DNA from: Shimia sagamensis
GTDB taxonomy: Bacteria > Pseudomonadota > Alphaproteobacteria > Rhodobacterales > Rhodobacteraceae
DNA: 64,000 bases
Assembly: GCF_900182745.1 (NCBI RefSeq)
Contig: NZ_FXTY01000002.1
Location: 186,001-250,000, forward strand
Direction of reading: 5' to 3'
This document shows positions 59,707 through 63,540 of the stretch, piece after piece. Position 1 is the stretch's first letter; each line of letters starts with the position of its first letter. The translations under genes were made by a program, and so were the position numbers. The notes beneath the pieces are model-generated. The model was not told where the DNA came from. It was given only the letters and a program-made list of their open reading frames with translations, and did no database searches.

Positions 59707-59858
59707 ACTCAAAACCTCCCGCGTCTCCTTTTAGGCTGCGCCGAAACTCCGCTCCATTCCAGCCCTCACACGCAGATGTGACAGCCCTTTACCAATCCTC
59801 AATCCCTCTGCCGCATAGCTAGGTCCGCAGCATTTGCCTCAAAAAAGGAAAATTAAAG

Positions 59859-61079
59859 TTGTTAGAAGAACAACCCTCTGCCGCTGACCTGGATCTCATT
59901 GCCGAGTTTGAACCGCGTTTTGAGATGTTAGACGCCAACAGCCTTGTGGCGCTTGCTGAAAACGCCCCTCTGGGTGACGGCGGCGTACATGCCTCCAATC
60001 TGCTCGCTCAGGCGCTTGAGAAAGACCCGCATAACCATGCGGCGCATCTCCTGAAAGAGCAATTGCATCAAATGTTTGTGCCGCGCTGGCACTTCCCTAT
60101 GTTGGCTGACACCGTCCGCAACCAAGCCTATGCCAAGGCCATTGCTGCCAAGGTCCAGCCGGGCGACATTGTGCTCGACATCGGCTGCGGCGCCGGCCTC
60201 ACCGCCATGCTGGCCGCCCGCGCGGGCGCCAAACACGTCTATGCCATCGAAGGCCAGCCGCTGATTGCCACAGCTGCCAAACAGGTGATCGCCGACAATG
60301 GTTTAAGCGACAAAATCACCGTCCTGTCAAAATGGTCCCACGAGCTGGTCATCGGCGAAGACCTGCCAGACCGCGCCGACGTTGTTGTCTCCGAAATTGT
60401 CGACAGCAATCTGCTGGGCGAAGGTGCCCTGGCTACGCTGACCCACGCCATGGAACACCTCGCCAAACCCAACGCCCGTGCGGTGCCCGAAAGCGGCACA
60501 CTCAAAGCGCAGCTGGTGGAAAGCGCCGCGCTACGTAATCAATACCGCCCACTGGAAGCCGAAGGTTTTGACCTCTCTGCCTTCCACAAGTTTGCCAATG
60601 TGGCACAGGTCACTCCCAACGACTCCGCCGCCTGCGGCCTACGTCCTTTGGGCCCAACCAGCGACCTGTTCCACTTTGACTTTACCCGTCCAGATATGTC
60701 CCACGGCAAAACCACGCTGCCGCTTTTCTGCACCACCATGGGCACTGCCCACGCGGTTGTGGTCAGCTTTGACATGGTGCTGGCACCGGGCATTTCAGTC
60801 TCCAACGACTTAAACACCGACGGCCATTGGGGCCGTTTTTCTTACTTGCTGGAGCAATCCACACCAGTTTCGGTGGGCTCTCAGGTCACCATCACCGCGC
60901 AGCACGACGCCACCAAACTCAGCGTGTCTATCCACGACACGACCCCAGCAGAACGCCCAATCATCTGGCAGCGTGGCGTGAACAGCCGCAGCACCTTCGC
61001 CCCCGTGCCCGAAGCCACGACGTCGTGGTTTGTACCAGACACGCAGGAGACACCCTCCTCCGAGCGTCCGGTGCACTAA
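59859..61079 (+). CDS. PRMT9-like protein arginine methyltransferase
   Basis: 406 residues from TTG 59859 (AAGGAA 8 bases ahead). A short TPR-like helical start (about 22-65) leads to FVPRWHFPMLADTVRNQAY, very close to the block that begins the catalytic region of eukaryotic PRMT9/PRMT7. Then follow SAM motif I VLDIGCGAGL (105-114), acidic E131, the double-E loop E179-I-V-D-S-N-L-L-G-E188, and a GHW at 322-324 where PRMTs have the THW loop. All hallmark catalytic elements are thus present. Bacterial PRMTs are rare; the protein substrate is unknown. Confidence 0.8.
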   Translation: MLEEQPSAADLDLIAEFEPRFEMLDANSLVALAENAPLGDGGVHASNLLAQALEKDPHNHAAHLLKEQLHQMFVPRWHFPMLADTVRNQAYAKAIAAKVQPGDIVLDIGCGAGLTAMLAARAGAKHVYAIEGQPLIATAAKQVIADNGLSDKITVLSKWSHELVIGEDLPDRADVVVSEIVDSNLLGEGALATLTHAMEHLAKPNARAVPESGTLKAQLVESAALRNQYRPLEAEGFDLSAFHKFANVAQVTPNDSAACGLRPLGPTSDLFHFDFTRPDMSHGKTTLPLFCTTMGTAHAVVVSFDMVLAPGISVSNDLNTDGHWGRFSYLLEQSTPVSVGSQVTITAQHDATKLSVSIHDTTPAERPIIWQRGVNSRSTFAPVPEATTSWFVPDTQETPSSERPVH

Positions 61080-61102: not shown

Positions 61103-61139
61103 AAAAGGCCCACCGCAATCCCTGCGATGGGCCTTTTTT
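61103..61139 (+). terminator. terminator after the PRMT-like gene
   Basis: AGGCCCA and TGGGCCT outer arms plus CGCA/TGCG inner arms around ATCCC, followed by TTTTTT. Confidence 0.9.
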
Positions 61140-61169: not shown

Positions 61170-61721
61170 TCACTCAGTCACAGTGACTTTTTTCATCAGA
61201 TCGGGCTGGCCAATCACGGCGCCGTTTTGGCCTTTGCCCAGCTTGATCGCATCAACAATGTCCATGCCCTCGGTCACGTGACCAACAACAGTGTACTGAC
61301 CATTCAGATGTGGCGCTGGAGCAAACATGATAAAGAACTGGCTGTTGGCGGAATTTGGGTTCTGGCTGCGCGCCATCCCAATCACACCCCGATCAAAACT
61401 CTTGTCGGAAAACTCCGCAGGCAAATCCGGACGGTCAGAACCACCACGGCCTGCCATGCGCATGTCTTCGCCAAGTTTGCCAAACTTCACATCACCCGTT
61501 TGTGCCATAAAGCCGTCGATCACGCGGTGGAACACCACGCCATCATACTGACCTTCAGCTGCCAAAGCGGTGATCTGCTCAACATGCTTGGGGGCCACAT
61601 CTTCAAACAGGTCGATGGTAATGATGCCATTGGCCTCACCTTCAACCTCGATCTGAATACCGGTGGCCAGCGCAGGGCTGGCCATCACGGCAAAAGCGGC
61701 AGCAAACTTAAGCATCGACAT
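61170..61721 (-). CDS. periplasmic cyclophilin peptidyl-prolyl isomerase
   Basis: 183 residues. Signal peptide MSMLKFAAAFAVMASPALA, then the cyclophilin fold: FHRVIDGFMAQTGD and NSANSQFFIMF hold the catalytic arginine and conserved glutamine/phenylalanine. Assists folding of exported proteins. Its ATG at 61721 overlaps the end of the cytoplasmic paralogue by 14 bases, with AAGGTGG as ribosome-binding site. Confidence 0.95.
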   Translation of the reverse strand: MSMLKFAAAFAVMASPALATGIQIEVEGEANGIITIDLFEDVAPKHVEQITALAAEGQYDGVVFHRVIDGFMAQTGDVKFGKLGEDMRMAGRGGSDRPDLPAEFSDKSFDRGVIGMARSQNPNSANSQFFIMFAPAPHLNGQYTVVGHVTEGMDIVDAIKLGKGQNGAVIGQPDLMKKVTVTE

Positions 61722-62220
61722 CTGCGGCCACCTTGACGCTGATCATGCGATCTGGGTTTGCTGGTGGCTCACCTTTCACAATTGCATCCACGTGGTCCAT
61801 GCCCTCAATGACACGGCCATAAACGGTGTACTGGCCGTTCAGGAAGTGGTTGTCTTTGAAGTTGATGAAGAACTGGCTGTTCGCTGAGTCTGGCATCTGG
61901 CTGCGGGCTGCACCCAATGTACCACGATCGTGAGGCAGTTTGGAGAATTCCGCTTTCAGATCTGGCAACTCAGAGCCACCGGTGCCTGCGCTGCGCAGGT
62001 TGAAATCTTTTTCCATATTGCCGTTGGCCACGTCGCCAGTTTGCGCCATGAAACCGTCGATCACGCGGTGGAAGCACACGTTGTCGTACTGACCAGAGCG
62101 CGCCAGCTCTTTCATACGTTCCGCATGACCCGGTGCCACGTCTGGCAACAGCTCAATAACAACCGTACCACCGGTCAGCTCCATCAGGATTGTGTTCTCA
62201 GGATCTTTGATCTCAGCCAT
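61708..62220 (-). CDS. cytoplasmic cyclophilin peptidyl-prolyl isomerase
   Basis: 170 residues without a signal peptide. Cyclophilin motifs FHRVIDGFMAQTGD and NSANSQFFINF match the following gene closely, pointing to a tandem duplication with one copy exported. ATG 62220 has GAGGAG upstream. It is divergent from pgk across 129 bases. Confidence 0.95.
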   Translation of the reverse strand: MAEIKDPENTILMELTGGTVVIELLPDVAPGHAERMKELARSGQYDNVCFHRVIDGFMAQTGDVANGNMEKDFNLRSAGTGGSELPDLKAEFSKLPHDRGTLGAARSQMPDSANSQFFINFKDNHFLNGQYTVYGRVIEGMDHVDAIVKGEPPANPDRMISVKVAADVDA

Positions 62221-62349
62221 GTCGGCGCTCCTCAATGTAAATTCTTGCCCCGTAGTTAAACATCCCGTCGGCGAATGCCAAGAGAGCGTTGACCCTATGT
62301 CCCAGTGCGCTAGGAATGCGGCAACGGATTTTCTTTGGAGATTGAGACC

Positions 62350-63540
62350 ATGGCGTGGAAGACCCTCGATGAAATGCAGCTGAGCGGCAAACGTGTGCTG
62401 ACTCGTGTGGACATCAACGTGCCTGTGGCTGATGGCCAAGTCACCGACACCACTCGCATCGACCGCATTGTGCCCACAGTGAAGGACATTCTTGCCGCCG
62501 GTGGCAAGCCGATCCTGCTCGCGCACTTTGGCCGCCCCAAAGGCGAACGCGTGCCGGAAATGTCGCTGCAACAACTTGTCCCCGCGCTTGAGGCTGCCTT
62601 TGGCACCAAAGTGATGTTTGCTGCCGACTGTGTTGGCCCCGCCGCCGAAGCTGCTGTAAACGCCCTGGCAGACGGTGACGTCCTTCTTCTGGAAAACACC
62701 CGCTACCACGCGGGCGAGACCAAAAACGACGCCGACCTAACCACCTCCATGGCCAAACTCGGCGACATCTTCTGCAACGACGCTTTCTCCGCCGCCCACC
62801 GCGCCCACAGCTCCACCTGCGGCCTGGCACACGACCTGCCCGCCTGCGCTGGTCGCTTGATGCAGGCCGAACTTTCCGCTCTGGAAGCCGCACTGGCCGA
62901 TCCGGTCCGGCCGGTAACCGCCGTTGTTGGCGGCGCCAAAGTCTCCACCAAACTCGAACTGCTCGGCAACCTGGTGGCCAAAGTCGACAACATCGTGATT
63001 GGCGGCGGCATGGCCAACACCTTCCTCGCGGCCCAGGGCATCGATGTCGGAAAGTCACTGGCCGAGCACGACATGACCAACACCGCGCGCAAAATCCTGG
63101 CCAAAGCCAAAGCCGCTGGGTGCACCATCGTGCTGCCGACCGACGTTGTTGTGGCGCGCGAGTTTGCTGCAAACGCCGCCAATGAAACCGTCGCCGCAGA
63201 CGCCTGCCCAACTGATGCGATGATCCTCGACGCCGGCCCCGCCACCGTCGCCAAAGTGGCTGAGGTGTTTGAAGCCTCCAAAACCCTGATCTGGAACGGC
63301 CCAATGGGTGCCTTTGAAATCGAACCCTTCAACGCCGCAACTGACGCCGCTGCGCTGCAAGCCGCCACCCTGACCAAAGCGGGCAAACTGGTTTCCGTGG
63401 CGGGGGGCGGTGACACTGTCGCCGCGCTGAACGCGTCTGGTGCAGCTGCCGACTTTAGCTACATCTCCACTGCAGGCGGTGCGTTCCTGGAATGGATGGA
63501 AGGCAAAGAGTTGCCTGGCGTCGCGGCCCTAAGCCAGTAA
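62350..63540 (+). CDS. pgk: phosphoglycerate kinase
   Basis: 396 residues. Interconverts 1,3-bisphosphoglycerate and 3-phosphoglycerate with ADP/ATP. Blocks [45 protein letters not shown] and [10 protein letters not shown] are intact. ATG 62350 (MAWKTLDEM) has GGAGA upstream and fits the family start. Followed 169 bases later by aldolase on the same strand. Confidence 0.98.

Follow-up and report, generated by a model that had tools for sequence, protein, structure and literature searches.

A single-module PRMT7/9-type methyltransferase gene in Shimia sagamensis, a member of a scattered bacterial family

PRMT7 and PRMT9, arginine methyltransferases known chiefly in eukaryotes such as animals, act on proteins, and PRMT9 carries several TPRs. 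The L11 methyltransferase, PrmA, has neither a PRMT barrel nor a double-E loop, and SznE uses free arginine. Bacterial PRMTs are reported to be among the subjects of a 2011 review by Aravind and colleagues on the methylation of chromatin proteins. In other papers PRMT7 is described as acting on proteins and the Trypanosoma brucei enzyme as a single module, as is the protein described here (PMC8399567). SznE (StzE) is described as an arginine-guanidino methyltransferase, with N-omega-methyl-L-arginine as the substrate of its partner SznF (PMC11705231), and SznE has also led to the discovery of an arginine methyltransferase in a different cluster (PMC12637814). BlsL is described as a guanidine methyltransferase and compared with PRMT and GAMT (PMC5572114). 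The literature searched, which fell short of most subscription papers, yielded no description of the bacterial family discussed below, so it may have been described.

The gene concerned lies in a stretch of 64,000 nucleotides of the genome of the marine bacterium Shimia sagamensis, here called the window, and had been predicted from the sequence to encode a bacterial PRMT9-like arginine methyltransferase with a TPR-like start. Its reading frame was found exactly where predicted, at 59859-61079 on the forward strand, encoding 406 aa from a TTG start to a stop ending at 61079. The motifs named in the original prediction were likewise all located: the block FVPRWHFPMLAD at residues 73-84, VLDIGCGAGL at 105-114, E179 and E188 nine apart and GHW at 322-324. 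The GC fraction of the gene is 0.596 against 0.563 for the window. The TTG start is probably real, because the TTG, the upstream AAGGA and the first residues are identical in the six closest same-genus orthologues (L002-L007). The features are as follows.

59859 to 61079, forward strand: PRMT7/9-type methyltransferase gene, 406 aa, TTG start (sequence and profile matches, model, Foldseek)
59845 to 59849, forward strand: probable ribosome-binding site AAGGA, 9 bases before the TTG (read directly; kept in L002-L007)
59985 to 60077, forward strand: one TPR-like hairpin of two helices, residues 43-73 (helices 43-55 and 60-73 in the model; profile aligned with bovine PRMT9)
60084 to 60131, forward strand: N-terminal segment RWHFPMLADTVRNQAY, residues 76-91 (conserved H78, M81, D84 and R87)
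60171 to 60200, forward strand: SAM-binding motif VLDIGCGAGL, residues 105-114 (sequence, alignments)
60249 to 60251, forward strand: E131, presumed ribose-binding acidic residue (E in 71/72 bacterial rows)
60393 to 60422, forward strand: double-E loop, E179 to E188, EIVDSNLLGE (alignment; spacing as in PRMT6, PRMT8, PRMT9 and the mouse PRMT7 N module)
60462 to 60944, forward strand: C-terminal PRMT beta-barrel (model strands; Foldseek matches to whole PRMT chains)
60822 to 60830, forward strand: GHW, residues 322-324, at the THW loop position (W in 70/72, H in 52/72 bacterial rows)
60966 to 61076, forward strand: disordered, poorly conserved tail, residues 370-406 (pLDDT <50 for 374-406; high dN)

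The segment RWHFPMLADTVRNQAY is one that, we presume, closes over cofactor and arginine in PRMTs, and the ribose-binding role of E131 is assigned by analogy. Also by analogy, the dimerisation arm is probably formed by about residues 222-262 of the barrel. A hairpin followed by a T run, picked out by eye and unscored, lies at about 61107-61139, between the PRMT gene and the neighbouring cyclophilin gene.

A phmmer search of PDB sequences gave mouse PRMT7 first at 8.2e-45, followed by bovine PRMT9 (8rbk; 8.1e-29) and human PRMT9 (2.5e-27), then PRMT7 from T. brucei and C. elegans and then type I PRMTs; the best 60 of 70 rows were all PRMTs. The values for PRMT7 and human PRMT9 exclude chance resemblance. 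A profile built from 19 bacterial relatives, picked from 41 loci (L001-L041), found PRMT7 at 1.8e-95, PRMT9 at 7.7e-91 and PRMT6 at 3e-41, and its alignment with bovine PRMT9 starts at residue 104, ahead of the module, and runs into the module gap-free; the stretch of PRMT9 beginning there is, we take it, its last TPR. Over the module the window protein is up to 41% identical to bacterial rows from outside the roseobacters (26% being the lowest within the clade), 33% identical to mouse PRMT7, 29% to PRMT9 and to T. brucei PRMT7, 26% to PRMT6 and 23% to PRMT8. Pfam recognises mainly the SAM domain. Its PRMT_C family scores 15.2 bits on the window protein, under the cut-off of 27, and was matched at E<=0.01 by 14 of the 19 family members; in a search for PRMT_C the genome itself gave nothing at E<=1, and 4 of 14 control genomes gave matches under the cut-off. 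In NCBIfam, none of the best 25 of 59 rows reaches its own cut-off.

The AlphaFold2 model, made from an alignment of the window protein with 36 of the 38 loci L042-L079 (n=37; L055 and L071 left out), has a mean pLDDT of 88.4 and a pTM of 0.82, with pLDDT under 50 at residues 1-4 and 374-406. In Foldseek searches of PDB chains it matched mouse PRMT7 (1.0e-25), bovine PRMT9 (1.2e-25, TMq 0.75 over 380 columns) and T. brucei PRMT7 (9.0e-24), the best 50 of 1983 rows all being PRMTs, PRMT5 included. A Rossmann SAM domain and a C-terminal PRMT barrel are both present, the latter being the feature by which PRMTs differ from L11 methyltransferases. Structure prediction, which the original prediction had proposed as a check on barrel and double-E loop, thus bears out the PRMT fold, with PRMT7 and PRMT9 as the best PDB chains. 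The TPR-like start is borne out in part: the model has a helical hairpin (43-55 and 60-73) immediately before the methyltransferase, profile-aligned to PRMT9, but it amounts to about one hairpin and Pfam reports no TPR for the protein even at E<=1.

Catalytic residues were compared in an alignment of 83 rows, comprising 72 bacterial PRMT7/9-type modules, five eukaryotic PRMT7/9 modules and six rows of the type I side, four of them bacterial. Across the 72 bacterial-type rows R87 is invariant (72/72), and H78 (71/72), D84 (71/72), E131 (71/72), E179 (70/72), W324 (70/72), M81 (67/72), E188 (60/72) and H323 (52/72) are kept to varying degrees. Ten residues (H78, M81, R87, E131, E179, D182, E188, A190, H323 and W324) are identical in all nine roseobacter rows. 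E179 and E188, nine apart, align with the double-E of PRMT6, PRMT7, PRMT8 and PRMT9, the loop reading SEIVDSNLLGEGAL in the window protein, TELFDTELIGEGAL in mouse PRMT7, TETVDAGLFGEGIV in PRMT9 and SEWMGYCLFYESML in PRMT8, and the H and W of GHW align with those of THW in PRMT6 and PRMT8. D182 and A190 are as in the N module of mouse PRMT7, whereas the six type I-side rows have Gly and mostly Met. Membership of the PRMT fold and superfamily is therefore supported, the catalytic set being complete and the C-terminal barrel present. E188 is absent in 12 of the 72 rows, 10 of which form one clade of Azospirillum-type proteins (L025, L029, L030, L032, L035, L040, L041, L050, L062 and L064) with Pro in place of the second Glu. 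Its loss in that clade suggests a different reaction, or none. With E188 lacking in these 12 rows, family membership alone is no proof of arginine chemistry; the window protein has both Glu residues.

A first tree was built from the same 83 rows (91 assembled after omission of nine duplicate loci, less eight near-duplicates), its bootstrap being not fully settled; the eukaryotic PRMTs in the trees are seven rows, all from PDB chains. All 72 bacterial-type rows group with PRMT7 and PRMT9 in a single 77-row clade (100/100, stem 1.15), which places the window protein with PRMT7 and PRMT9 and apart from type I. Outside this clade, with type I, are PRMT6, PRMT8 and four PRMT-like rows of bacterial origin, L076, L078, L079 and L124; the one from a Poribacteria MAG, L076, shares SEWMG and THW with PRMT6 and PRMT8. 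Within the clade, the window protein groups with eight other roseobacter rows (100/100, stem 1.01 changes per column). A second tree, of 59 rows and built with the longest branches removed, put PRMT9 outside the other 53 rows at 90/86, not among the starred branches, and left most of the order open, and in both trees the order of PRMT7, PRMT9 and the bacterial lines inside the clade is not separated. AU tests, on groups named after the first tree had been inspected, rejected a clade of all seven eukaryotic rows (p 0.001) and rejected none of the others: the five eukaryotic PRMT7/9 rows together (p 0.21), roseobacters with PRMT9 (p 0.133) and roseobacters with all five (p 0.147). With the deep order open, both ‘PRMT9-like’ and ‘descended from bacteria’ go beyond these data. 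Profile search and phylogeny, the checks proposed at the outset, accordingly settle the family, with PRMT7 and PRMT9 as best matches and the 77-row clade at 100/100, and leave open the order of PRMT7 and PRMT9. Of the label PRMT9-like, what stands is a PRMT-fold enzyme on the PRMT7/9 side; the protein has one module, PRMT7 is its better match by sequence and its grouping with PRMT9 has the AU p of 0.133.

PRMT7 (mouse 4c4a, T. brucei 4m36) is the best match in sequence and fold, and the double-E loop of the mouse N module ends in GEGAL, as in the window protein. Mouse PRMT7, however, has tandem modules where the window protein has one, and T. brucei PRMT7 has QW rather than HW at the THW place. 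PRMT9 (human 6pdm, bovine 8rbk) shares the SAM domain, the double-E loop with D at 182, the barrel and a hairpin running straight into the module, but it has a second, degenerate module, which the window protein, at 406 aa with one module, has not, and CW instead of HW in its first. Bacterial TPR-PRMTs (L014, L046 and L048) have the same module (identity 40% for L014, 33-36% for L048) preceded by multi-repeat TPR arrays, as against about one hairpin in the roseobacter group. These were three of six family proteins scanned whole; the same scan found no TPR array in L049, L061 or L071. At L048:4408-8359, in Tistlia consotensis, two PRMT-like genes are neighbours on one strand. L071 (5944-8019, Kiritimatiellae) encodes 691 aa with two tandem PRMT modules, the first degenerate (no GxGxG, Tyr for both Glu) and the second intact; it is a bacterial parallel to the tandem PRMT7 and PRMT9, but with the intact module last.

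Relatives of the window protein are widely and thinly spread. The genus, family, class and phylum counts come from different queries and cut-offs, and the weakest matches in the class and phylum counts may be type I-like or other methyltransferases. With the protein as query at E<=1e-10, matches were found in 12 of 60 relatives, including 10 of 25 of the same genus (own genome counted), and, across the class, in 52 of the 385 genomes sampled; with the 19-relative profile, the phylum gave matches in 31 of 299 genomes (at 1e-10) and the family in 7 of 295 (at 1e-30). Among the matches listed are Leisingera, Shimia marina, Tritonibacter, Azospirillum and Sphingomonas, and further Streptomyces, Actinomadura, Phormidium, Prochlorococcus and Owenweeksia. 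Actinomycetota, Cyanobacteriota, Bacteroidota and Kiritimatiellota are represented among those listed, which are no census of phyla. A scan of contigs gave at least 71 loci, of which 38 (L042-L079) were used; 33 others (L080-L112), whose matches were weaker (E 1e-8 or worse) and mostly confined to the SAM region, were dropped. Relatives occur in 11 of 72,556 plasmid records. None of 50,697 phage records matched and no relative was confirmed on viral contigs, there with a single-sequence query sensitive to close relatives only; carriage by phages or viruses was rejected on these grounds. The original prediction called PRMTs a eukaryotic hallmark, which overstates the case, given 52 of 385 genomes of the class, several other bacterial phyla and the SznE described in PMC11705231.

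Within the genus the PRMT gene is accessory. In the window a divergent DUF3179 gene lies upstream and two convergent cyclophilin genes, then pgk, lie downstream (the second cyclophilin being called by similarity to the first, and pgk named from sequence). The two cyclophilin genes (61170-62709) are adjacent, about 57% identical to each other, and paired in all 14 same-genus PRMT-less loci too. The PRMT gene is between the DUF3179 and cyclophilin genes in the window and in L002-L005. L006 has the cyclophilins and no DUF3179 within reach, L007 the reverse and L010 neither, and L008 and L009 have the aquaporin gene on the left. Fifteen same-genus genomes are without the gene, and the cyclophilin gene was located in 14 of them. 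In 11 of these 14 loci (L129, L131-L137, L140-L142) DUF3179 adjoins cyclophilin with no PRMT between, and in L130, L138 and L139 DUF3179 is not beside cyclophilin. L132 has some 800 bases between the two; the best tblastn match to a PRMT in this long empty site has an E of 0.26, and no remnant is claimed. Other roseobacters have different neighbours around the gene, so either the gene moved or its surroundings did. A conserved operon partner was sought and rejected: in an all-against-all comparison of 365 ORFs from the 38 loci L042-L079 no non-PRMT family occurred in more than three loci, and Pfam scans of nine neighbours at four roseobacter loci gave families that differ per locus (two of the nine without any).

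The gene is under strong purifying selection. Against L002-L007 dN/dS is 0.027-0.075 (dS 0.55-0.73), and against seven more distant rows 0.11-0.28, where dS of 1.1-3.0 is near saturation. Mean dN among L001-L007 is 0.186 for residues 363-406 against 0.017 for residues 75-210, the tail past 362 being unconserved.

Public annotation of relatives would make the protein an L11 methyltransferase (PrmA) or another Rossmann methylase: 4 of the 11 plasmid records with a relative call the gene ‘50S ribosomal protein L11 methyltransferase’, and Pfam PrmA matches the window protein at 43.4 bits, over a cut-off of 22. This we consider hardly credible. The Pfam match is limited to residues 94-219, that is, to the SAM-binding domain, the only part that the two proteins share, and NCBIfam prmA scores 36.5 bits against a cut-off of 183.15 (37 bits, over the SAM part, in the genome search). 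A better prmA match exists as a separate PrmA-like gene on contig 5 of the same genome (118.6 bits, positions 89-287), also under that cut-off; of 14 control genomes, 4 reach it. The window protein has the double-E loop and the barrel of a PRMT, and the barrel refutes a PrmA identity; the L11-type or plain Rossmann methylase against which the original prediction had set its own reading is excluded by the prmA score, the separate gene and the barrel. A recent acquisition from a eukaryote by horizontal transfer is also very unlikely. PRMT7 and PRMT9 are indeed the best PDB matches and the trees do not separate them from the bacterial lines, yet the window protein lies within the nine-row roseobacter clade, amid bacterial lines from at least five phyla, and its identity to other bacterial rows reaches 41% (26% being the lowest within the clade), against 33% at most to the eukaryotic ones, all PDB chains. 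On that placement and these identities such a transfer was rejected.

What the enzyme methylates is a separate matter. It might act on free L-arginine or another small guanidino compound, like SznE, with N-omega-methyl-L-arginine as a metabolite or signal. A protein of Streptomyces albipurpureus (L047), 39% identical to that of the window over residues 56-362 and of the same PRMT7/9-type clade, is encoded immediately ahead of a gene whose product matches SznF along its full 472 residues (4.6e-235) and, given this whole-length match, is almost certainly SznE (the sznE-sznF-like pair is at L047:5806-8372). Sharing the clade, it points to free arginine, and homology therefore does not imply a protein substrate. 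Likewise, an SznF-like gene (1.0e-110, 40% identity) stands two genes ahead of a relative on a Pantoea plasmid. The genome of the window, by contrast, has no SznF-like gene at E<=0.01 in a search that found both positive controls (the Streptomyces genome and the Pantoea plasmid), the window copy is surrounded by DUF3179 and cyclophilin genes and no biosynthetic cluster, and the match of L047 to the family profile starts at position 21, leaving the hairpin unrecognised although some 75 residues precede its module. Action on free arginine is a possible, somewhat less likely reading. The Pantoea dispersa region (L163:2030-8477), in which the PRMT-like gene is annotated as an L11 methyltransferase and Rieske, MFS, ATP-grasp and ada genes are near, looks like an N-nitroso natural product cluster. 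It is improbable that the PRMT fold is kept while the methyl group goes to some other N or O acceptor, as in the tyrosine O-methylation proposed for LynB3-OMT, a PRMT-like domain. In PMC10127204 a domain resembling arginine methyltransferases is presumed to be an O-methyltransferase, and one bacterial subclade of 10 rows is without E188, but both Glu residues, R87, H78, H323 and W324 are kept in all nine roseobacter rows. Weak PRMT-module matches lie inside ORFs of about 2190-2480 aa in G067, G196, G294 and G281, which are perhaps multidomain synthetases like the host of the LynB3 methyltransferase domain.

We consider it moderately likely that the window protein works as a single-module arginine N-omega-methyltransferase and belongs to the PRMT7/PRMT9 branch of the PRMT fold, with monomethylarginine as its likely product and a protein or peptide arginine as the favoured acceptor. 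The dimer, residue roles, product, substrate class and cellular role that we infer for it would be along these lines. Two chains would probably pair head to tail via the barrel arm, as single-module PRMTs do. SAM would lie above E131 and the GCGAGL motif, the guanidino group of arginine would be clamped by E179 and E188, H323 and W324 would form a wall of the pocket, and one methyl group would pass to a terminal nitrogen of arginine. Monomethylarginine is the most likely product because the PRMT7-type D182 and A190 replace the Gly and Met of type I. The N-terminal helical hairpin may be what is left of a TPR array such as some relatives have, and may help with the acceptor; as such arrays occur in three of the six family proteins scanned whole, and the window protein keeps the hairpin only, protein or peptide arginine is rated above free arginine, though not by much. 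No gene around the window copy points to a substrate.

The window protein is one member of an under-recognised, scattered bacterial family of PRMT7/9 type, often labelled otherwise, and some genes labelled L11 methyltransferase (those of 4 of the 11 plasmid records) belong to this family. A bolder and rather doubtful proposal is that the bacterial TPR-PRMTs are the prokaryotic stock of eukaryotic PRMT7 and PRMT9, with the TPR-to-module junction of PRMT9 already present, that protein arginine methylation is real in bacteria and that the roseobacter enzyme is a slimmed, accessory form. A broad bacterial family on the PRMT7/9 side, with its TPR-array members and the tandem protein L071, is material for the origin of PRMT7 and PRMT9, and it offers a small bacterial enzyme in which arginine methylation might be tested by simple deletion.
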